Below are positions 5,278 to 17,333 of a stretch of 57,732 nt of DNA, in pieces (position 1 is the first letter of the stretch; each line of letters begins with the position of its first letter). This DNA is from Candidatus Polarisedimenticolia bacterium (GTDB lineage: Bacteria; Acidobacteriota; Polarisedimenticolia; Gp22-AA2; AA152). Under the pieces are notes generated by a model. It did not search any database, was not told the DNA's origin, and saw only the letters and a program-made list of their open reading frames with translations. The stretch lies in assembly GCA_035764505.1 (NCBI GenBank), contig DASTZC010000081.1, positions 1 through 57,732 on the forward strand, read 5' to 3'. The translations under genes were made by a program, and so were the position numbers.

Positions 5278-7296
5278 TTACTTCGTCTCGAAGTGCACCA
5301 CCCCGTCCCAGTCGGCGGGAGGCTCCTGAGCGAAGCGCGTCAAGAGGTCGAGATAGAGCTCCGAGGGGCCGTCGCGCCCGCCGAGCAGATCGCGCGTCTG
5401 GCGGAAGCCCTCGGCGGCCCGCTCCAAGCGGCGCTCGGTGTAATCCTCCAGCGCCTCCTGGAAGCGCCGCAGTGCCGCGGCGGGGAGCGGAGATTCCTCT
5501 CCTTTCAATCCCAAGAGCTCGAAGAGCTCCACCGGCTCGCCCCGGCCCACCACCCGGGCGCGCCCGAGGCGACGCGCCAGGAAGGCCCCGCCGGTCCGTG
5601 AAAAAGTCTCGCCGCTCACCAGGGCCACCGTCCCCCAGGCTTTGTTGAGGCTTTCCAGCCGCGACGCCAGATTCACCGCGTCGCCAATCGCGGTGTAGTC
5701 GAAGCGCTGCGCCGAGCCGAGGTTCCCCACCACCATCGCCCCGGTGTGCACCCCGATGCGGGTGATGAGGCGCCCTTCACCCAGGCCCACCGCCTCCGCA
5801 ACCTTCCGGTCGCGCGCCAGCTCGAGGGCGGCCCGGCAGGCGCGCGTGGCGTGGTCGTCCATGCGCAGCGGCGCCCCCCACAGGGCGAACACCGCATCGC
5901 CGATGTACTTGATGAGCGTCCCCTCCGCCTCGAAGATGTGGCGGGTCGCCTTCGAGAAGTAGTCGTTGAGCAATGCCGCGGTCTGGTGCGCGCTGAGCGA
6001 TTCGGCGATCGTCGTGAAGCCTTTCAGGTCGGTGAACAGCGCCGTGGCGACGATCTCCTCGCCCCCCAGGTTGAGGGAGTCGGGGCTGGCGGCAATGCGC
6101 CGCGTCATCTCGGGGGAAAGGTACAAGGAGAAGGCCCGCTTGATGCGCTCGCGCTCCCGCACCGTGGTCAGGTAGTACCAGCCGAGGCAGAGCACGCCGG
6201 CGATCGGCAGCTGGATGGCGCAGGGAATCACCACCGGGAGCCAGAAGTGCCAACGGGCGAACCCCACACCGGTCAGCGCGAGCGTGCCCAGCTCCATGGC
6301 GCCGAAGGCCAGTACTCCCCACAAGGGACGCAGCGCCAGGAAGACCAGCGTGGCGGCGAGCGGCAGCAGCAGGAGCATGGCGGCCTCGGCGCCGCGCGGC
6401 AGGAGCCGGATGCGCCGCCCCTCCAGGAGGTTTGCCGCCACCGTGGCGTGCACCTCCACCCCGAAGGTCAGATCACCGGCGGCTCCCCGGAACGGGGTCA
6501 GGAAGGCGTCCTTGGCAGAGATGCCGGTGGCGGTGGCCTGCGACAGCCCGACGAAGACCACCTTGTCCTTGAAGTAGTCGGGCGGGAGGTACTGCGCCGG
6601 ATCGAGCGCCTGATAGTAGGAGACGGTCGGAATGGTGCGCGGCGGCCCGTAGTAATCGATGAGGCGGGGTCCGGTGTCACGAGCCTGGAGGTTCTTCGCG
6701 GCGACCCGGACGGCCGCCAGGGAAAGGGCCTCATGGCCCCCGTAGGACATCGAGGCGGTGCGGATGATGCCGTCGCGATCGGTGGAGAAGTTGGCGTTGC
6801 CGACCGCCGCGGCCGCCTCGGCGAAAGGCGGGTAGGGATCCTTCATCTGGAGGCGGCGGAAGCGCGGGTCATCGACCTGATCGACGGTCGAAGCGAGCAC
6901 GACATTGCCCGCCTCCGACAGGGCCGCTTGCAGCTCCTCGTCCTGCGCTGCGTCGCGCGGCTCCTCGAAAAGAACGTCGAAGGCGATGGAGGAGGCGCCG
7001 GCGCTCTGCAGGGTCCGGATGAGGGTGGCGTGCAAGGCGCGCGGCCAGGAGTCGGTTTGTTTGACGCCCAGCTCCGGGTAGGAGTCGTCGTCCAATGCCA
7101 CGACGCGGACGCGATCCGGCGACGGTAGCGGCCCGCGGATCTGGAAGAGGACATCCAGCCCGCCGCGCTCGAGGTTTTCCCCCGGCGCCCAGCGGGACAG
7201 CAGGACTCCCACCGCGCCCGGGATCAGCGCGATCAGCAGCGCGGCCCTGAGCTTCCCGGGGCGCTTCCGGGAATTCGGGCGCCGCGGCGAAGCCAT
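5278..7296 (-). CDS. CHASE2-domain class III adenylate cyclase
   Basis: This is a 672-residue membrane sensor. It has an N-terminal membrane segment (about 17-35), an extracytoplasmic CHASE2 domain (about 40-310), three closely spaced membrane helices (about 310-395), then a class III cyclase domain (about 420-605). The metal-binding Asps are in FTDLKGFT and KYIGDAVFALWG. The purine-contacting Lys/Asp pair (KYIGD, RFDYTAIGD) favours ATP over GTP. The catalytic Asn and Arg are in NLASRLE. All key residues are present, so it should be active. Its ATG shares one base with the TGA of the upstream FecR-TPR-barrel gene (TGATG), so the two are translationally coupled. A C-terminal helical tail follows the cyclase domain. 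Confidence 0.92.
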   Translation of the reverse strand: MASPRRPNSRKRPGKLRAALLIALIPGAVGVLLSRWAPGENLERGGLDVLFQIRGPLPSPDRVRVVALDDDSYPELGVKQTDSWPRALHATLIRTLQSAGASSIAFDVLFEEPRDAAQDEELQAALSEAGNVVLASTVDQVDDPRFRRLQMKDPYPPFAEAAAAVGNANFSTDRDGIIRTASMSYGGHEALSLAAVRVAAKNLQARDTGPRLIDYYGPPRTIPTVSYYQALDPAQYLPPDYFKDKVVFVGLSQATATGISAKDAFLTPFRGAAGDLTFGVEVHATVAANLLEGRRIRLLPRGAEAAMLLLLPLAATLVFLALRPLWGVLAFGAMELGTLALTGVGFARWHFWLPVVIPCAIQLPIAGVLCLGWYYLTTVRERERIKRAFSLYLSPEMTRRIAASPDSLNLGGEEIVATALFTDLKGFTTIAESLSAHQTAALLNDYFSKATRHIFEAEGTLIKYIGDAVFALWGAPLRMDDHATRACRAALELARDRKVAEAVGLGEGRLITRIGVHTGAMVVGNLGSAQRFDYTAIGDAVNLASRLESLNKAWGTVALVSGETFSRTGGAFLARRLGRARVVGRGEPVELFELLGLKGEESPLPAAALRRFQEALEDYTERRLERAAEGFRQTRDLLGGRDGPSELYLDLLTRFAQEPPADWDGVVHFETK

Positions 7297-10200
7297 CAGT
7301 AGGTGAGCGTCACCCGGAGGCTGACGGTGCGGGCCGGGATTACCGAATCCTGGATGGTCCGCTCGTAGAAGTCGAACTCGCGATCACCCAGGTTGCGCGC
7401 CTGCAGCGTCACGCTGCCGTAGCGTTTCGGGAAGCGGTACCCCACCATCAGGTCCTCGATCCAGAACTTGGTGTTGATCGAGTTGCGGCTGCTCGACGTG
7501 AAATCGTCGAAAGTGTCGACCTGCTGGTCGTAGCGGGTGCCGGCGACCCCGGCGAAGAAGCCGCTGGGGAGGTAGAAGCGCACCTGCGGCCGCAGGCGCT
7601 GCGTCTCGATGTAATCCTCCCAGGTGTTGGTCGCGAGGAGCACCCGCGTGTAGTCGAAGTCGTACTGCTCGACGGAATACTCCACGCCGGCGGAGACGAA
7701 GCGCCCCAGCGCGGCATTGACGTAGGCGTTGAGGTAGTCGTCCTTGCTCTCTTTGTGGTCCACGATATCGGCGACCTGGAAGCCGCAGCCGCCGAAAGGA
7801 TCCTCGGTGGAGCAATAGGCCTGCGGGATGTTCAGGTCGCGGCGCACCACCGACAGCCCGCCGAACAGCCGCTTGCCGAACTCCTGGTCCACGCCGAAGC
7901 CGTAGGACAGCGAGTGGGTGCCTCCCGGCTCCTCGTAGAGCTGGTTGAATCCGGAGATCTGGGTCGGCTCGAGAGTCTGCACGCGCCCGAGGCTCGGGGC
8001 GAGGCGGTACCAGCCGGCGGCGCGCAGCGTCGTCTTCGAAGGCAGGTAGAGGGAAACCCCGGCCTTGGGACTGAACTTGGTCTCGGAGAAATCGAGATCC
8101 TCGGCGGCGCCGATGCCGGAGTTGCGCGGCAGTACCAGCCCGGTGGGAACGTCGACGCTCTCCACGGCGACCCCGGCGGTGAACTCCCAGGGACTGCCGT
8201 GCCTGCGATATTTCATGTAGCCGTAGCCGTTGAAGAAGGTGTCGTCCCCTTCGAGCTGTCCCGCCCCCTGGTCGAATTCGGTGGTGCCGTCGAAGCCGCC
8301 GACCCCGGCGATCCAGCTCATGCTCTCGCCGGTCTTGAAGACGGTCTGCGCCTCGACCTGGGGCCCTTTCAGCGTCCCATCGCCCTTTGCCTGCGTGAAG
8401 AGATCGGTGATTTCCTGGTCCAGGTCGTTGTAGATGCCGGAGACGACGAGGTGGGCGGACGGGGAGAGCCTGCGATGCCATCCGAATCCGACGTTGGTCA
8501 AACCGGTGTTGATCCGCTCGTAGAGGATCAGTGCCGGGGTCTCCGTCAGCGGCTGGTCGCCCGTCTCGCGCCGGCCGATCTGGGCGTTGACCTGGAAGCT
8601 GTCCTTGTAGCCGGGCGAGTACTCGAAGAAGCCGCGGTAGGTGGCCAGGCGCTGGTCGTTGTTCTGGCGGAACCCGTCGTCGTCGAACTTGCGGTACGAG
8701 AGAGCCCCGGCATAGTGATCCCCGTTGACCGTGCCGGTCACGTTGCCGTCCCAGAAGTTGCTGTCATCCAGCTCGGTGGCCTGATCGCACGGAATCCCCC
8801 CCGGAAAGCCGGGCGGGAAGCAGAGGACGTTCGAAGGGACCACCTCGTCCAGCTCGGTGTCGGTCTGCCCGTACTCGAAGGCCCCGAAAGCCCGGGCCCG
8901 CGGCCGATCGAACAGTGCCGTATATTCGTTGAAGGAGACGTTGCTCTCGTTGATCACGTCGGGCCGCGCCGCGTTGACGTTGGCCGGCTGGAAGATGCGG
9001 GCCTGCAGGACCTCGCTCAGGAAGGCCGGTGCGTAGTTCGGTGTGGTCCGGTAGGTTCCCGACAGGAAGAGATGGCTGGAGAAGTTGGCCTGATCCTGAT
9101 CGGCACTGCGCCGCGCCGTGACCATTCCCAGCTGCTCGAAGCCGAGATCGTTGTAGACCCGCGCCATATCGCTGGCCCGGGTGGCGGTGTCCTGGTCGAG
9201 CAGGAGGCGCGAGCGGTAGACGGCGCGCCGGTCGTTGCGCTCGATCGATTCCTGCATCGCCGTCAGCGCCTCCAGCGGGCGGTTGTCGTTCTGCTTGAGG
9301 ATGGCGTCATAGAGGTAAGGTGTCGGGTCGTTCGGGTCGAGCTCCTTGGCGGTCGCCAGCTCCTTGCCTGCCTCGGGAATGCGGCGCTCCTCGTAGTAGG
9401 CCTTTCCCAGATACGAGCGCGCCAGCGAGTCGGCCGGGTCGAGGGTCGCCGCCGTCTGCAGCGACTCGCGCCCTTTCTCGACCTGCTTGGTGCGCATCTG
9501 CGAGATTCCGAGGCCCAGGTGCGCCAGCGGAAGTCCCGAATCGGCCTGAACTGCCTGCTCGAACAGCTGCCTTGCCTTGCTTGAGTTGAACTCGGCCAGC
9601 TCCACGAAGCCCAGCACCGACAGGGCGCGGGCGTTGCCGGGGGCGGCCTTCACGGCCGCTTCGGCCATCGACCGGGCCTGCTCGATGTTTCCCTGGGCCA
9701 TCAGCATCTCGGCGGTGCGTGCCTTCGCCTCGCCGCTGGAGGGATCCAGCTCCGACGCCTTTCGGGCCAGGGCCGTAGCCTTGTCGATGTCGAAGGCGCC
9801 CTGCGCGGCAATCGAGCCCGCCAGCGCCGCCGCCGCGGAATCGGGGGCCGCCGCCATCGCTTCACCGGCCAGCTTCGTCGCATCCTCGCGCCGGTTCTCG
9901 CCCGAGGCGATCACCGACGACAGGGCCAGTGCGATCGGGTCGCGCGGATTGGTCTTCAGCGCGCCGTCGACCAGGGGCTTGGCTTCATCGACCTGGCCGG
10001 CGGAGAGCTTCGTGGCGGCGCGAGAGAGCGAGTCGCCCGCGGCTCCCTGCTTCTCGAGCCGGGCGGCGTCGCCCTTTCCGAGGATCGGCGGGTAGTAGAA
10101 GCTCCAGGCCACGGCGTCGCGCGGGTGCACCAGGGTGCGGCGGACCGGCGCCTTGCCCGGCTCGACGTAGGCCTGCTCCCCGGGCCGGACCTCCAGGCTC

Positions 10201-10733
10201 CCCTGGGCGTTGCTCGCCTGAACCACCCCTTCGAGCATGGTGATGGTGACGGTGGAATCCTCGGCCACGTCGACCTCGAACTCGGTCCCCTTGATCGCGG
10301 CGGTCACGGTCGGCGTCTCGATCTTTCCGAAATCCTTTGGCGTGCGGCTGGAGAAATAATGCTGTCCGGAGAGGACCTTCAGCACTCCGGGCGTGTCACC
10401 CGCGGGCGGCAGGATCTCGACCTCGCTCTTCTCGTTGAGCCGGTGCAGGGTCTGGTCGGCGTAGAGGAGCGACGCCCGGCTGGCGGCGCCGGTGCGCACC
10501 CGATCATGCCCCTGAAGCGTCTGGTTCACCGTTGCAGGGGCCCAGCCGGTCTTTCCGGACGGGCGCGACTCCACCGTGTTCTGCATCGAGGTAATCCGGG
10601 CGACGGCCGGCCCGGCGGCGAAGGAGCCGCCGCGAATCGAGCCGAAGAGGACCAGGACGGGTAGCGCGGCCAGGGCCGCGGCGCGGAGCGCGCCCGGGAT
10701 TCGGGCCGTCGCGGCGCGGGGCAGTGACGACAT
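7296..10733 (-). CDS. FecR-TPR-outer-membrane beta-barrel fusion protein
   Basis: This is a 1145-residue exported protein (signal peptide about residues 14-40). A FecR-like domain spans about 45-215, with GHDRVRTGAASRASLLYADQ and VTAAIKGTEFEVDV. About eight TPR-like repeats follow (about 235-510). From about 570 onward the sequence alternates polar and aromatic residues in amphipathic strands and ends in ARTVSLRVTLTY, a typical C-terminal beta-signal for outer-membrane barrels. No TonB plug domain is seen. TPR-plus-barrel resembles the architecture of PgaA-type polysaccharide secretins, while FecR domains may bind signals or glycans; the role is inferred only. It is the first gene of a two-gene operon with the CHASE2 cyclase. 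Confidence 0.85.
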   Translation of the reverse strand: MSSLPRAATARIPGALRAAALAALPVLVLFGSIRGGSFAAGPAVARITSMQNTVESRPSGKTGWAPATVNQTLQGHDRVRTGAASRASLLYADQTLHRLNEKSEVEILPPAGDTPGVLKVLSGQHYFSSRTPKDFGKIETPTVTAAIKGTEFEVDVAEDSTVTITMLEGVVQASNAQGSLEVRPGEQAYVEPGKAPVRRTLVHPRDAVAWSFYYPPILGKGDAARLEKQGAAGDSLSRAATKLSAGQVDEAKPLVDGALKTNPRDPIALALSSVIASGENRREDATKLAGEAMAAAPDSAAAALAGSIAAQGAFDIDKATALARKASELDPSSGEAKARTAEMLMAQGNIEQARSMAEAAVKAAPGNARALSVLGFVELAEFNSSKARQLFEQAVQADSGLPLAHLGLGISQMRTKQVEKGRESLQTAATLDPADSLARSYLGKAYYEERRIPEAGKELATAKELDPNDPTPYLYDAILKQNDNRPLEALTAMQESIERNDRRAVYRSRLLLDQDTATRASDMARVYNDLGFEQLGMVTARRSADQDQANFSSHLFLSGTYRTTPNYAPAFLSEVLQARIFQPANVNAARPDVINESNVSFNEYTALFDRPRARAFGAFEYGQTDTELDEVVPSNVLCFPPGFPGGIPCDQATELDDSNFWDGNVTGTVNGDHYAGALSYRKFDDDGFRQNNDQRLATYRGFFEYSPGYKDSFQVNAQIGRRETGDQPLTETPALILYERINTGLTNVGFGWHRRLSPSAHLVVSGIYNDLDQEITDLFTQAKGDGTLKGPQVEAQTVFKTGESMSWIAGVGGFDGTTEFDQGAGQLEGDDTFFNGYGYMKYRRHGSPWEFTAGVAVESVDVPTGLVLPRNSGIGAAEDLDFSETKFSPKAGVSLYLPSKTTLRAAGWYRLAPSLGRVQTLEPTQISGFNQLYEEPGGTHSLSYGFGVDQEFGKRLFGGLSVVRRDLNIPQAYCSTEDPFGGCGFQVADIVDHKESKDDYLNAYVNAALGRFVSAGVEYSVEQYDFDYTRVLLATNTWEDYIETQRLRPQVRFYLPSGFFAGVAGTRYDQQVDTFDDFTSSSRNSINTKFWIEDLMVGYRFPKRYGSVTLQARNLGDREFDFYERTIQDSVIPARTVSLRVTLTY

Positions 10734-10800: not shown

Positions 10801-10836
10801 CAAAAGAAACCCCCCGGGGGATGGCCCCCGGGGGGG
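10801..10836 (-). terminator. intrinsic terminator of the Cys-rich surface protein gene
   Basis: A perfect GC stem (CCCCCCGGGGG at 10810-10820 against CCCCCGGGGGG from 10825) closes an ATGG loop. On the minus strand it is followed by TTTCTTTT. It lies 33 bases beyond the stop at 10869 and separates that gene from the FecR-TPR-barrel operon. Confidence 0.88.
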
Positions 10837-10868: not shown

Positions 10869-13016
10869 TTATTGCAGGACAAAGCCCGTGACGAACCGGC
10901 GCCCGTTGATATCGATCGTAAGAGTGTAGATTCCGGCACCCAGCTCCTTCGTCCGCATGTTGTAGATCCACTGCGAGGAGTTGGTGTTGTAGCGGAAGAA
11001 GGGATCATTCGTGTTCGCGTCGTCGTTCAGGTTGATATGCGAGATGTCCAGGGCTCCGAGCGCGGCTTCCGAAAGGCCCACGATCTGCGGCGGATTAATC
11101 ATCGAGCCGGTGAGATTGATGCCGCCGCACAGGAGCTTCATCTTGAGGGGACGGGACTTGCCGACGGCGAACGGCTTCGGAGGGAACGGCACGATCTCCC
11201 CTTCGGGAACGAGCTTGGCCATGGGGGAATCGAGGCCGACCAGGCCGTCGAAGGTGCGATCCGCCACGGCGCAGGCTCCGGCGATCCCCAGGCTGACGGG
11301 GACGTCGAAGACGATCGGCCCGGACGACGAGTTCCCGGTGAAGTGCAGATTGAACGGTCGGGCAACATCCCCGGGATGATTGATCGGCAGCGTCACGACG
11401 AACGGGGAGAGGTTGGTCGCCGGCGTGACGGGGCTGGGCGGGAGATTGCAGTCGCCGCTTCCCGCGGCAGCGCCGGCAATCGAGCCATAGGCCTGGGTGG
11501 CGCCCGCGATGGTGATGCCCACCGGATTGGCGACGCCGTCATCCGTGAGATCGACCGGAGGGCTGCTCAGGGTCGCGGAGACTCCGGTCAGCGCGGTGTT
11601 GCCGGCATTGATCACGGAGATCTTCAAGCTGGCCTTTTCCCCCGGCCCCATCAGGCCGTCACCCGTCGCATCGGCCACGGCCACCAGATAAGGCGACAGG
11701 AAGATGGCGGGAATCCCTTTGGTCAGATCGGGGAGGAGCTGCATGTAGGTTCCCTGGGTCGGAGGCAGGCCGTTGTCGCACAGGCCGTCGAGGCCGACCG
11801 GGCTGCCGCCGGCACAGTAGATGAACCGGTTCACAACCTCCTTGGCGAGAACCGCGCTGGTGTGGCAATCGCTGAAGCTGCCTCCCGGCGGGAGGGTCTC
11901 CTGGATCGGCTGCGTCTCGCACAGCGGCGCCTCCACGGGCAGAGGAGCCGACGTGCGCAGACCGGCGCCGCTCCCCGTGCACTGGCAGGATTGTCCCTGG
12001 CTGCAGGTTCCCTGGCCGGTGGACGGGCAGAGGTTATTGCAATTGATGCCGCAGCCGCCGCAGTTCTGGGAGTCGGTGTGGATGTTCACGCACTGGTTGT
12101 CGCAGGCGGTCTGGGTCGGCGGCGTGCAGGTGACGCAGGCCCCGCTGGTGCAGATCTGGTTGTCGCCGCAGGCATTGCCGCAGCCGCCGCAGTTATTGGG
12201 ATCCGACAGCAGGTCGACGCAGGCTCCGGCGCACAGCGTCGTCCCGGCAGGGCAGCCGGCGACACAAGCTCCCTGCGAGCAGGACTGGCCCGAGGGGCAG
12301 ATGTTGCCGCAGGCGCCGCAGTTGAGGACGTCGGTGAGGTAATCGACGCAGGTGCCGTCGCAGTTCAGCTGGTGCTCTGAGTTGCAGCAGCCGGGAGGAA
12401 ATGCCGGAACGTCCAGGGTAACGGTCGAGTTCGACGGATTCCGCAGCGTGGTGGTGTAGCCCACCTGCCCGGTGGAGACTTGCCCGACGCTGCTGGTGGC
12501 GCTGAAGACCAGCTGATCCGGGCTGAAGAACTGGATCAGGCTCGAGGTCAAAGATGCGTTCGACAGCGTCACTCCGGTGGAGGAGAGCGATCTCCCCGGC
12601 ACCGCGAACGGTCCGCGGGTGGTGATGGGATCGGGCCCGGCAGTCTTGGTGAAGCAGATATCATTGCTGCACAGCGACCCGGTGTAGGAGACGATCGACG
12701 AGCCGGTCTCCCAGGTGTACTTGACGCCGATGCCGGTCGCCGTTCCCGCCGCGATGTTGGTGCTGAAGCCGCCCGGCGCGGCGGAGGGATAGCTGAAGGT
12801 GAAGGCGTCGCCGACCGCCTTGTTGGTGATCTTATTCTCCACCTTGGGGGGGAAGGTCCTCAGGATCGTCAGAGTGACGGAGCTCTCCGCGCTGTTGGTG
12901 GTCTTGCCGTCCAGGTCGATCGACTTGGATGCGGCCCAGGCGGCGAGAACGCCGAACGCGGCGGCTATCGCGAGGATAACGAGAAATGCATGAGGCCTTC
13001 CGGACTTTCCAAGCAT
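10869..13016 (-). CDS. secreted Cys-rich protein with NCGxCG repeats
   Basis: This 715-residue protein has an N-terminal membrane/signal segment (HAFLVILAIAAAFGVLAAWA). The N-terminal half looks like a beta-rich adhesin. A Cys-rich block follows (about residues 225-350) with at least three repeats of the form C-x3-CVD/N...NCGxCGxxC, a pattern common in surface proteins of myxobacteria and other soil bacteria. A Ser/Thr-, Pro- and Gly-rich region with Ig-like features (about 440-650) and a C-terminal domain ending RRFVTGFVLQ complete it. No enzymatic motif is visible. I chose the ATG at 13016 because AGGAGAG lies six bases upstream; the frame extends to 13043. It has its own terminator. The function is unknown, probably extracellular binding. 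Confidence 0.8.
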   Translation of the reverse strand: MLGKSGRPHAFLVILAIAAAFGVLAAWAASKSIDLDGKTTNSAESSVTLTILRTFPPKVENKITNKAVGDAFTFSYPSAAPGGFSTNIAAGTATGIGVKYTWETGSSIVSYTGSLCSNDICFTKTAGPDPITTRGPFAVPGRSLSSTGVTLSNASLTSSLIQFFSPDQLVFSATSSVGQVSTGQVGYTTTLRNPSNSTVTLDVPAFPPGCCNSEHQLNCDGTCVDYLTDVLNCGACGNICPSGQSCSQGACVAGCPAGTTLCAGACVDLLSDPNNCGGCGNACGDNQICTSGACVTCTPPTQTACDNQCVNIHTDSQNCGGCGINCNNLCPSTGQGTCSQGQSCQCTGSGAGLRTSAPLPVEAPLCETQPIQETLPPGGSFSDCHTSAVLAKEVVNRFIYCAGGSPVGLDGLCDNGLPPTQGTYMQLLPDLTKGIPAIFLSPYLVAVADATGDGLMGPGEKASLKISVINAGNTALTGVSATLSSPPVDLTDDGVANPVGITIAGATQAYGSIAGAAAGSGDCNLPPSPVTPATNLSPFVVTLPINHPGDVARPFNLHFTGNSSSGPIVFDVPVSLGIAGACAVADRTFDGLVGLDSPMAKLVPEGEIVPFPPKPFAVGKSRPLKMKLLCGGINLTGSMINPPQIVGLSEAALGALDISHINLNDDANTNDPFFRYNTNSSQWIYNMRTKELGAGIYTLTIDINGRRFVTGFVLQ

Positions 13017-13114
13017 GAACACTCTCCTAGACGAGCGGCCCACGTACTTGCGACCAATCTGTTCTGTTAGAATTCCGCGGCGAAGAGCTGGAATGGCTTT
13101 ATACTATACGCCCT

Positions 13115-13196: not shown

Positions 13197-14033
13197 TTGA
13201 CCGACCCGGGCTACAAGCTGCGGTTCTGGGGAGTGCGGGGCACCGTACCCACGCCGGCACGCGAGATGCTCAGCTTCGGCGGCAACACCGTCTGCCTGGC
13301 GGCGGCGCTGGGGGAGCAGGAGTTCCTGGTCCTGGACTGCGGCAGCGGCCTGCGGCTGCTGGGAAACCACATCGCCTCCCTGCCTCAGGGGATCCCCCGC
13401 CGATATCATATCTTCCTTTCCCACTATCACTTCGACCATATCGAGGGGCTGCCGTTCTTCCCCCCGCTGTACGATGCGCACTCGGCCTTTACCTTCCACG
13501 GCTTCAAGTCGGATGGACGGTCGACCCGCGAGATTCTCGAGGGGCTGATCTCTCCTCCCTACTTCCCGGTGCGGCTGGCGGGAGTCCCCGCCCGCGTGGA
13601 GTACATCGACACGGATGGCTTTCCGATCAAAGTCCGGGATGTCCAGGTGAGCTGCCTGCCGCTGCGCCACCCGGATGGGTCGCTCTCCTATCGCCTCGAG
13701 CACGCCAACCGGCGCGTCGTCTTCGCCACCGACCACGAGCATGGGGACGAGGCGACCGACAAGGCGCTGGTCAAGTTCTCCGAGGGGGCCGACTACCTGA
13801 TCTACGACGCCACCTATCTGCAGGGGGAGTACGAGAGCCTGCGCCGGGGCTGGGGGCATAGCACCTGGTACGCCGCGGTGCGGACGGCCCGCCTGGCGGG
13901 GGTGAAGAACCTGGTTCTCTTCCACCACCATCCCGACCATACCGACTCCGACCTGGAAGAGGTCCTGCGCGTGGCGCGGGAGGAGCTCCCCTCCACCGAG
14001 ATCGCGCGGGAAGGAATGGAGCTTCCTTTTTGA
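13197..14033 (+). CDS. metallo-beta-lactamase fold hydrolase (PhnP/COG1235-like)
   Basis: This is a 278-residue MBL-fold protein. It opens with LRFWGVRGTVPTP, and the metal-binding HxHxDH is in SHYHFDHIEGLPFF (about residue 80). Further ligand motifs are RHPDG, FATDHEHG, GHSTWYAA and LFHHHPDHTDSD. Members related to PhnP hydrolyse cyclic phosphodiesters; this subgroup is often found beside signalling proteins, and the substrate is unknown. The start is probably TTG 13197, because the conserved fold begins within seven residues. A GAGGGAG lies very close (2-3 bases), so initiation may be weak. It precedes a SpoIIE-type sensor phosphatase by about 70 bases on the same strand. Confidence 0.8.
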   Translation: MTDPGYKLRFWGVRGTVPTPAREMLSFGGNTVCLAAALGEQEFLVLDCGSGLRLLGNHIASLPQGIPRRYHIFLSHYHFDHIEGLPFFPPLYDAHSAFTFHGFKSDGRSTREILEGLISPPYFPVRLAGVPARVEYIDTDGFPIKVRDVQVSCLPLRHPDGSLSYRLEHANRRVVFATDHEHGDEATDKALVKFSEGADYLIYDATYLQGEYESLRRGWGHSTWYAAVRTARLAGVKNLVLFHHHPDHTDSDLEEVLRVAREELPSTEIAREGMELPF

Positions 14034-14102: not shown

Positions 14103-15962
14103 TTGAGACTTCCGCTGCGCTGGAAGCTGATTCTCGCCATCTCTCTCCCGGCCATCGCGGTGTGGGGGGCGATGAGCTGGATCCTGGCGGACCAGGCCGG
14201 GCGCCGGAGCGAGCGACGCCTGGAGGAGGAGTCGACGCGGCGCATCGGCCGGATCGCTGCGCTGATCGAATCGAGGGTCGAGCGGATTGCCGCAACCGCC
14301 GGGCAGGCGGCCGCAGCAGCGGGGAAGGCGCCCGATCTCTCCGAGGCGGCCTCGAGGTCGCTGCTGGAGGCGGCTCTCGAGAACGAGCCCGCCATCCTGC
14401 GGGCCGGCGCCGCATGGAAGCTCCCCGGCGAGCCAGGCGCGCACGGGATCGCTCTCACGCGAGCCGCGGGAGGCTTCGAGGCCGAGACACTCCCGGAGGA
14501 GGCGGCGTCGAGACAAACGGCGGATACGGCGGGCTGGAAGGTGCCGGAAGCGGAGCGTGGTCCGGGCCTGGTTTTCACGGCGCCGTTTGCCCGCCCGAGC
14601 GGCGGGCAGGGCGATCTTTCCTTCGAGGTGTCCCTGGAGGATCTCTGCGCCGGCCTTCCCGTGGAGCTGCGCCGGGAGGGGGCCTATGCCCTGGCGGGCC
14701 CGCAAGGCAGGATCCTCTGCGCCTTCGCTCCTCCCGGAAGCCGGCTTCCCGAGGAGGTATCCCTTCCGGAGATCGTACGCAAGTCGGGCCGCGCCGACCT
14801 GGAAGATCTCGGCCGCCGCATCGCGTCGGGAGAGACCGGCATCGCGCGCGCCCCGGGACTCCTCACGCCGGATCGGCGCTGGTTCGCCTACGCCCCGATC
14901 CATTCCCTGGACGGCTACCTGATCGCTTCGGTCCCCGAGTCGGTGGTCCTGGCCTTCTCCCGCAGCCAGATCTACATCGGCTTCGTGCTGCTGTCCGCGG
15001 GGCTGGCGGCGCTTTTGGGGATCATCATCGCCATGTCGACGCGCATCACCGCGCCGCTGTCGCACCTCTCCGGCGCGGTGGCCGAGCTGGGGACGGGAAA
15101 CCTCAAGACGCGGGTGACGGAGGTGCCGGCGGGAGACGAGATCGGCGATCTGGCGGCGTCGTTCAACCGCATGGTGGGCGATCTGGAGCGGCACGTCGAG
15201 GCGCTGCAGCGGGAGACGGCGGCGCGCGAGAAGGTGGAAGGGGAGCTGCGGGTGGCGCGCGGCATCCAGACCGCGCTGCTGCCGAAGCGCCTGCCCACCG
15301 GGTCGAAGTTCGAGATCTCCGCCACCAACCTGGCGGCGCGCCACGTGGCGGGCGATTTCTACGACGCCTTCCTGAGGAACCCCGACACTCTCGTCCTGCT
15401 GGTGGCCGATGTCTCCGGCAAGGGACTGCCCGCCGCTCTTTTCATGGCGGTGTCGCGCACGGTCCTGCGCCGGCTGCTGCACTCCGAGGCGCCCTTGTCG
15501 GAGGTCCTGGCGCAGGCGAACGAGTCGCTCGAGGGGGAGAACGTGGGCGGGATGTACGTCACCCTGTTCGCCGGCATCTACGACATCCCCTCGGGCACGC
15601 TGCGCTACGCCAACGCCGCCCATCCCGTGCCCCACCGCATCGATGCCCGCGGCAAGGTCACCGACCTGGGAGAGGTCACCGGGACGATGGTGGGGCTGCT
15701 GCCGGCGCGCACCTACGAGGAGAAGGTCGAGCATCTGGCGGTGGGGGATCGGATCCTGATCGTGACCGATGGCGTGCCGGAGGCGAAGGACGCGGCCGAG
15801 GAGTTCTTCGGGGACGAGCGGCTGAAGTCGCTGCTGGGTGCCGGGGATCCGGGCGAGACGGCCGACGCGCTGCGCCGTCGGGTGATTGCGGAAGTGGAGC
15901 GCTACCAGGGGGAGAACCTGGCGGACGACGTGACGGTGATGGCGCTGCGCCGATTGGGATGA
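14103..15962 (+). CDS. membrane sensor with HAMP and SpoIIE-type PP2C phosphatase domain
   Basis: This 619-residue RsbU/SpoIIE-like protein has an N-terminal helix (about 7-28), a periplasmic sensor region (about 30-290), a second helix (about 292-320), a HAMP linker (about 320-375), a helical linker and a PP2C domain (about 400-615). The linker signature VARGIQTALLPKRLP and the metal Asps in GDFYDAF, VADVSGKGLP and ADDVTVMAL are intact. Such proteins dephosphorylate anti-sigma-antagonist proteins in partner-switching systems. No RsbV/RsbW-like partner occurs in the window. The start is TTG 14103 with GGGAG about five bases upstream. The gene ends four bases from a second, convergent phosphatase. 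Confidence 0.88.
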   Translation: MRLPLRWKLILAISLPAIAVWGAMSWILADQAGRRSERRLEEESTRRIGRIAALIESRVERIAATAGQAAAAAGKAPDLSEAASRSLLEAALENEPAILRAGAAWKLPGEPGAHGIALTRAAGGFEAETLPEEAASRQTADTAGWKVPEAERGPGLVFTAPFARPSGGQGDLSFEVSLEDLCAGLPVELRREGAYALAGPQGRILCAFAPPGSRLPEEVSLPEIVRKSGRADLEDLGRRIASGETGIARAPGLLTPDRRWFAYAPIHSLDGYLIASVPESVVLAFSRSQIYIGFVLLSAGLAALLGIIIAMSTRITAPLSHLSGAVAELGTGNLKTRVTEVPAGDEIGDLAASFNRMVGDLERHVEALQRETAAREKVEGELRVARGIQTALLPKRLPTGSKFEISATNLAARHVAGDFYDAFLRNPDTLVLLVADVSGKGLPAALFMAVSRTVLRRLLHSEAPLSEVLAQANESLEGENVGGMYVTLFAGIYDIPSGTLRYANAAHPVPHRIDARGKVTDLGEVTGTMVGLLPARTYEEKVEHLAVGDRILIVTDGVPEAKDAAEEFFGDERLKSLLGAGDPGETADALRRRVIAEVERYQGENLADDVTVMALRRLG

Positions 15963-15966
15963 GGGG

Positions 15967-17235
15967 CTAACGCGGCAGGCGGCGGACCAGGAGCATCGTC
16001 ATGTCGTCGGCCTGCGGAACCGGCCCGCAGAAGCGCTCTACCTCGGCCACGATGCGCTCCAGAAGCCGCGCCATCGGATCCCCCTGATGCTCCTGGACGA
16101 GGCGGGCGACGCGCTCCTTCCCGAAGGCTTCCTCCTGCGGGTTCTCGTATTCGAAGATCCCGTCGGTGATCAGTCCCAGGATGTCCCCCGGGCCCAGGTC
16201 GTGCGATCGGGCCTCCGGGAGCGGCAGGCCCGCCATGAACCCCATCGGGACGGTGGAGGCCTCCATCCACTCGCAGGTTCCCGACTGCGCGTGAAAGTGC
16301 AGCAAGGGTCCCTGGCCTCCGGCGTGGTAGATCACCCGGTGCTTCTCGGTGTCGAGCAGCCCCAGGAAGGCGGTCACGAAGCGGTTGTCGGGGAGATCGT
16401 CCACCAGCTGATCGTTGATGTGCCGGAAGGCCGAGTCGAGGTCGCTCCCCAGGCGCACCGCCATGCGCAGCATGGCCCGCACCTGGGTGACGCTGAGAGC
16501 GGGGCCCACGCCGTGCCCGGTGGCGTCCCCGAGCAGCAGCATGAGACGGTTCCCGTCCATGGCGATGATGTCGAAGATGTCGCCGCCGGTCTCGTTGGCG
16601 GGCCGGCTCCAGCCCGCCAGATCGTAGCCGGCCAGACGCGGCACCGCCTTGGGTAGCACCCGCGCCTGGATGTCCCGCGCCACCGAGAGCTCCTGCTTCA
16701 GCTTCTCGTTCTCCACCAGCTCCATCAGCATCTGCGTCCGCTGGATGGCCACGGCGCACTGCGCGGCGAGAGCCGTGGCGATCGACTCGTCTTCCTCCGA
16801 GAAAACCCCCTCGCGCTTGTTGAGCACCTGCATCACCCCAACCAGCGAGTTGTCGTAGCCGATCAGCGGGACGGTGAGCAGGCAGCGGGTGCGGTAGCCG
16901 GTCTTCTGGTCCGCCTCGCGGTTGAAGCGCGGGTCGTTATAGCAGTCGGGGACGTTGATCACGGCGCGGCGCTCGGCGCACTCGCCGATGATGCCGCGGT
17001 TGGCCGGGAAGCGCAGCGCCGTCACGCCGGTGGCCACCGTCGTGGTCAGCTCGTGGGTCTTGGGGTCGTAGAGAAACACCGATCCGCGATCGGCGTCGAG
17101 GACGGCCCGCGCCGCGTCGATGACATGGCTCAGGGTGGTATTGAGATCGAGGGGCCGGGCCAGCTCGCGGGTTACGGACAGGATGCGCTCCATCGCCTCT
17201 GCGGTGGGGGACGAGCGAACCTTCTCCTGCCCCAT
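15967..17235 (-). CDS. GAF-domain SpoIIE-type PP2C phosphatase
   Basis: This is a 422-residue soluble protein. A GAF domain (about 30-175, with LDADRGSVFLYDPKTHEL and VMQVLNKREGVFSEEDE) is followed by a short helical linker (SVARDIQARVLPKAVP) and a PP2C/SpoIIE domain (about 200-420). Metal-binding Asps are in TGGDIFD, LLGDATGHGVGPAL, LITDGIFEYENP and ADDMTMLLVRR. It probably dephosphorylates an STAS-type antagonist in response to a small ligand or redox cue sensed by GAF. I chose ATG 17235 because GGGGAGG lies upstream; the GTG at 17253 lies inside that ribosome site. It converges on the HAMP phosphatase gene. Confidence 0.88.
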   Translation of the reverse strand: MGQEKVRSSPTAEAMERILSVTRELARPLDLNTTLSHVIDAARAVLDADRGSVFLYDPKTHELTTTVATGVTALRFPANRGIIGECAERRAVINVPDCYNDPRFNREADQKTGYRTRCLLTVPLIGYDNSLVGVMQVLNKREGVFSEEDESIATALAAQCAVAIQRTQMLMELVENEKLKQELSVARDIQARVLPKAVPRLAGYDLAGWSRPANETGGDIFDIIAMDGNRLMLLLGDATGHGVGPALSVTQVRAMLRMAVRLGSDLDSAFRHINDQLVDDLPDNRFVTAFLGLLDTEKHRVIYHAGGQGPLLHFHAQSGTCEWMEASTVPMGFMAGLPLPEARSHDLGPGDILGLITDGIFEYENPQEEAFGKERVARLVQEHQGDPMARLLERIVAEVERFCGPVPQADDMTMLLVRRLPR

Positions 17236-17333
17236 GTCCCGTGACCTCCCCACAAGTGTCCGGTTAGAGTAACAGAGAACCGTTCCGACGCCTACCGGGC
17301 GGCGGGGTTATGATAGACGGGCGAGGTGCGGAG

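Follow-up and report, generated by a model that had tools for sequence, protein, structure and literature searches.

A FecR-TPR-barrel receptor gene coupled to a CHASE2 adenylate cyclase gene in an acidobacterium: a putative trans-envelope sensor of the NsrA-CyaK kind

The operon and its genomic setting

The window analysed here is a stretch of 57,732 nucleotides from Candidatus Polarisedimenticolia bacterium (contig DASTZC010000081.1), and it carries two adjoining genes that are read from the same strand (Table 1). The first, a single open reading frame, encodes one polypeptide with a signal peptide region, a FecR domain, a TPR array and a predicted C-terminal barrel, and the second, in the same operon, encodes a class III cyclase with a CHASE2 domain; this is the composition that defines the NsrA-CyaK type. 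The junction reads ...ACCTAC TGA TGG..., the A of the receptor TGA doubling as the A of the cyclase ATG, which bears out the one-base stop/start coupling of the original prediction. On the downstream side, a UbiD gene in convergent orientation has its end 9 bases past the cyclase stop codon. Upstream lies a terminator-like hairpin; terminator-like sites are overall equally frequent in shuffled sequences, but no other stem comes near this one in length. Because of the convergent gene on one side and the hairpin on the other, the transcription unit most simply consists of just the receptor and cyclase genes. A promoter scan found no sigma-70-like site, a result of little weight for a high-GC acidobacterium.

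Table 1. Features of the receptor-cyclase locus, in coordinates of the window
Feature	Position	Strand	Basis or remark
FecR-TPR-barrel receptor gene, NsrA-like	7296..10733	-	1145 aa; ORF, Pfam, alignment, AlphaFold2
Signal peptide region, residues 1-40	10614..10733	-	single hydrophobic stretch 12-36; unordered in model
FecR domain (PF04773), residues 77-172, periplasmic	10218..10505	-	Pfam
TPR array, residues 220-581, about 10 helical hairpins	8991..10076	-	Pfam and model
Predicted 22-strand outer-membrane barrel, residues 612-1145, TonB-receptor type, no plug	7299..8900	-	model and structure matches
TGATG junction, receptor stop/cyclase start, one base in common	7294..7298	-	sequence
CHASE2 adenylate cyclase gene, CyaK-like	5278..7296	-	672 aa; ORF and Pfam
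CHASE2 domain, residues 30-314, periplasmic	6355..7209	-	flanking transmembrane segments 14-38; 302-334, 351-374
Class III cyclase domain, residues 418-587	5536..6045	-	motifs FTDLKGFT, KYIGDAV, RFDYTAIGDAVNLASRLE; genome's only PF00211 match
Terminator-like hairpin, 11 G-C pairs then TTTCTTTT	10810..10835	-	between operon and upstream gene
Secreted cysteine-rich repeat protein, MXAN_6577-like	10869..13043	-	just upstream of receptor gene

The assembly measures 4.46 Mb and is listed with a completeness of 100%. It contains a single CHASE2 match and a single full-length copy of the receptor, together with four cNMP-binding proteins and four FecR domains. Its one class III cyclase (PF00211) is that of the operon and no class I cyclase was found; with these two classes searched, the operon carries the only cyclase detected in the genome. 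The whole cAMP pathway of this organism could thus hang on one receptor.

The cysteine-rich protein encoded upstream of the receptor is STIG1-like in Pfam and MXAN_6577-like in NCBIfam. In relatives of the same class (L034, L035, L037 and L039), its gene likewise immediately precedes the receptor gene, with a variable number of repeats that is higher in L039 than in the window, and among the loci examined it was not found outside Acidobacteria. It is possible that this protein is an accessory, a surface partner or a ligand of the receptor. Farther out, two genes stay close to the module in L034, L037, L039 and L070, one for an MBL-fold hydrolase (13197-14033, +) and one for a GAF-SpoIIE phosphatase (15967-17253, -). 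The GAF-SpoIIE gene adjoins one for a HAMP-SpoIIE phosphatase (14103-15962, +), which places two PP2C-type genes side by side near the CHASE2 cyclase. A role of the MBL-fold neighbour as a cAMP phosphodiesterase is not claimed, as it gave only a weak match to NF041851 (40/400 bits) and RNase Z models scored higher.

Domains and predicted folds of the two proteins

In the receptor protein, Pfam matched FecR (E 3e-14) and TPR (PF14559, E 4e-21, with TPRs to about residue 500), called no barrel family and did not match the plug domain (PF07715). Transmembrane prediction gave no helix beyond the N-terminal hydrophobic stretch. The AlphaFold2 model, computed from an alignment of 54 natural relatives, has a mean pLDDT of 82.5 and a pTM of 0.80, and runs from a beta-rich FecR domain through the helical hairpins to 22 strands between residues 612 and 1144, as tallied by hand from the listed secondary-structure elements. 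Foldseek matched the model to TPR solenoids (OGT) and to TonB-dependent receptors (BtuB, PirA and FecA). With VIA-align, the barrel was superimposed on PirA with a Z of 22.9 and an rmsd of 2.9 over 409 residues, and many further TonB-dependent receptors lay near Z 20. When Pfam was run on 26 relatives, FecR and TPR were present in all of them and the TonB-receptor barrel PF00593 in 11, and the plug family was absent among the 25 families listed. Because of these structure and PF00593 matches and the absence of a plug family, the modelled barrel is best described as being of the TonB-receptor type minus the plug. The architecture is kept along the full length of the 54 aligned proteins and is therefore not due to chance.

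The cyclase matched CHASE2 (PF05226, E 4e-46) and Guanylate_cyc (PF00211, E 2e-20). Its CHASE2 domain lies between transmembrane segments, and the class III motifs, read by eye, are intact, including the metal-binding Asp and the adenine-binding Lys/Asp; the protein thus has the features of a CHASE2 class III adenylate cyclase, and these residues would suit an enzyme that prefers ATP over GTP.

Pfam and the model therefore agree with the FecR, TPR, barrel, CHASE2 and cyclase domains originally called in these two reading frames, and the plug-less barrel of 16-22 strands that had been anticipated appears with 22. Canonically, FecR is an anti-sigma relay to FecI. In the window receptor, the FecR domain comes after a signal peptide and belongs to an outer-membrane protein; no inner-membrane helix was found before or after it, nor a cytoplasmic anti-sigma domain ahead of it. 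The canonical relay was rejected, as the topology does not fit it.

Distribution of the family and its CHASE2 partners

Across about 85,000 species, each represented by one genome, a scan yielded 495 confirmed relatives, and the best 80 of these were analysed. These 80 span Acidobacteria, Deltaproteobacteria, Gammaproteobacteria, Burkholderiales, nitrifiers, Rhodospirillales, Nitrospirae and Rokubacteria; in most of them the alignment starts near residue 44 and runs through to the C-terminus. Forty of their loci have at least 2.5 kb of sequence on each side, and in 36 of these a CHASE2 protein is encoded within 2.5 kb; this proportion comes from the best 80 of 495 and may be high for more distant relatives. 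The conserved adjacency that the original prediction called for is thus observed. Moreover, the pairing has been kept through at least eight changes in relative gene order on a tree of 73 family members. At four loci with full flanks (L085, L087, L143 and L144, from Nitrosospira, Nitrosovibrio and two gammaproteobacteria), a CHASE2 gene was not found nearby, and the partner may be encoded elsewhere.

In 50 of the loci examined, the CHASE2 partner of the receptor is a cyclase. Of the 37 cyclase loci that could be tested, 18 have a gene for a CRP-family regulator within 1.3 kb on the upstream side of the cyclase gene (the domains were verified in L104). In a Competibacter-type clade, the partner is instead a histidine kinase, adjoined in L103 by an NtrC-like response regulator, and in a single case (L072) a CHASE2-SpoIIE fusion, that is, a SpoIIE-type (PP2C) phosphatase, replaces the cyclase. 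The output has thus changed twice on the tree. Because CHASE2 stays constant while the outputs are swapped, these results suggest that CHASE2 is the part addressed by the barrel protein.

FecR domains also occur beside CHASE2 in other settings. A FecR gene lies within 3 kb and on the same strand in 15 of 29 evaluable Acidobacteriota CHASE2 loci, barrel forms included. As barrel-less FecR genes also adjoin CHASE2 genes, here and, according to published work, in Burkholderia (PMC5192318) and Campylobacterota (PMC9239204), FecR is likely to be the contact to CHASE2. In Sinorhizobium meliloti, the FecR protein SMc02177, with a locus tag adjacent to that of CyaD1, is dispensable for signal perception (PMC5498481); FecR beside CHASE2 is therefore not always a relay.

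The CHARACTERISED relative, a Sinorhizobium pSymB locus, was reached by a protein search of plasmids. On pSymB of strain ml28, a gene annotated nsrA is followed directly by cyaK with a one-base overlap. NsrA has the domain order FecR-TPR-barrel and aligns with the window receptor along its length at 21% identity; its barrel half matched the barrel model of the receptor family with an E of 1.5e-13, whereas shuffled controls stayed above E 1. On the tree, it forms a separate long branch, and the window pair is for that reason called NsrA-CyaK-like rather than orthologous. Given this distance, its function may differ from that of NsrA-CyaK. Garnerone et al. 2018 is the original NsrA paper. Two S. 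meliloti strains (L064 and L065) differ strongly in several loop stretches of the NsrA barrel and are nearly identical in FecR-TPR, a pattern that would fit diversifying pressure on the outer loops. In strain ml59 (pSymB, L065:10519-12467), cyaK is seemingly split over two frames and unannotated; in B401 it is one open frame.

Proposed mechanism, alternatives and known systems

We consider it likely that the operon encodes an NsrA-CyaK-type sensor whose two proteins together span both membranes. The barrel of 22 strands would sit in the outer membrane, where its outer loops may sense something at the cell surface, and the TPR solenoid and FecR domain would hang inwards from it, toward the inner membrane. 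Barrels of this sort have their two termini on the periplasmic side, so this arm and its FecR domain should lie in the same compartment as CHASE2, as originally supposed. The FecR/TPR arm could then meet the CHASE2 domain of the cyclase, presumably through direct FecR-CHASE2 contact, and a change in the barrel or the arm would switch cAMP synthesis, in one direction or the other. The cAMP would be read by CRP-type proteins, which may in turn act on target genes.

The envelope-to-cAMP circuit of the original prediction gains support from an experimental precedent. NsrA of S. meliloti is reported to be an outer-membrane receptor that is required, together with the inner-membrane cyclase CyaK, for perception of a plant signal, and other workers have demonstrated that CyaK-dependent signalling needs NsrA (PMC7529298, PMC13001267). 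In a distant homologue, the predicted circuit has thus been established by experiment. The need for the receptor in signal-dependent cAMP synthesis is known from S. meliloti only (PMC7529298).

Other explanations have to be weighed against this two-protein sensor. The barrel might be an export or secretion pore, like PgaA or BcsC or serving the cysteine-rich neighbour, with a cyclase that only monitors or tunes export. The plan of PgaA, a TPR array plus a barrel, fits this idea, as do the retention of the secreted cysteine-rich protein gene beside the receptor gene in class relatives and a plug-less barrel that could be open. However, the PgaA model TIGR03939 matches TPR residues 334-438 only, with 17.1 bits against a cut-off of 366.65, the predicted barrel is a 22-strand one of the TonB-receptor type, and the cysteine-rich protein is confined to Acidobacteria among the loci examined; in S. 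meliloti, moreover, the homologue works in perception (PMC7529298). The PgaA/BcsC-type identity was therefore rejected, the original analogy to PgaA export did not hold, and we regard an export role as improbable. It is still harder to credit that the two genes are neighbours by chance, with no joint action. This would accommodate the four of 40 full-flank loci without a CHASE2 neighbour, but not a pairing that recurs in the other 36, across phyla and after at least eight rearrangements, nor its occurrence in a 4.46-Mb genome with a single CHASE2 gene.

A somewhat stronger, though still unlikely, alternative is that the receptor senses the state of the envelope, such as barrel assembly, peptidoglycan or outer-membrane damage, and that the status of FecR/TPR sets cyclase activity with no outside ligand. 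Because FecR-CHASE2 pairs occur without a barrel, the sensed cue may indeed be periplasmic; examples are FecR-only neighbours and the Burkholderia BiofilmReg operon, in which a LysM-FecR protein occurs with a CHASE2 histidine kinase (PMC5192318). In contrast, conservation of the barrel over phyla and the response of NsrA-dependent signalling in S. meliloti to added protein signals (PMC7529298) argue for a cue from outside.

A broader proposition can be put forward tentatively, and we hold it somewhat less probable than not. The family might constitute a phylum-spanning and so far unsystematised class of trans-envelope receptors, in which a plug-less TonB-receptor-type barrel docks directly on CHASE2 through a covalently linked TPR-FecR arm. 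Its outputs would be interchangeable (cyclase and CRP, histidine kinase and NtrC-type regulator, or PP2C phosphatase), outer-membrane sensing would need neither TonB nor a sigma/anti-sigma pair, and no other input to cAMP would exist in this acidobacterium. Few systems have been worked out that lead from an outer-membrane signal to a cytoplasmic second messenger, and in the present case one protein seems to span the periplasm. Its constant partner is CHASE2, a domain for which, to our knowledge, a cue has seldom been identified. Through the survey, what was an isolated case from rhizobia becomes a widespread family whose outputs are swapped, and the notion that CHASE2 has FecR as its partner can be tested directly.

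The pairing of such a receptor with a cyclase is in itself already known, though little known, from NsrA-CyaK; the new elements are the type of barrel, the wide distribution across phyla, the exchange of outputs and the seeming dependence of the window genome on this one cyclase. In the window pair and in nsrA-cyaK alike, a FecR-TPR-barrel receptor gene overlaps by one base the CHASE2 adenylate cyclase gene that comes directly after it. They differ in the low identity and separate branch described above, and the cysteine-rich neighbour was not seen at the pSymB nsrA-cyaK locus, unlike in the window. In addition, S. meliloti has about 28 cyclases (PMC5498481), compared with one class III cyclase in the window genome. 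In the CHASE2 cyclase clusters of Campylobacterota, which also include a phosphodiesterase, FecR and TPR are described as separate proteins (PMC9239204), whereas the window receptor unites FecR, TPR and barrel in one polypeptide. The Burkholderia BiofilmReg operon (PMC5192318) is similar in placing a FecR-domain envelope protein beside a CHASE2 transducer, but it lacks the barrel, has LysM instead of TPR and uses a kinase as output. PgaA-type porins likewise fuse a periplasmic TPR array to a barrel; their likeness to the window receptor is limited to the TPRs, the barrel is of another type, and the window adds a FecR domain and a cyclase partner. With TonB-dependent receptors such as FecA, BtuB and PirA, finally, the window receptor shares the 22-strand barrel fold, but where these have a plug, none was found in it, and it carries a TPR-FecR arm instead.
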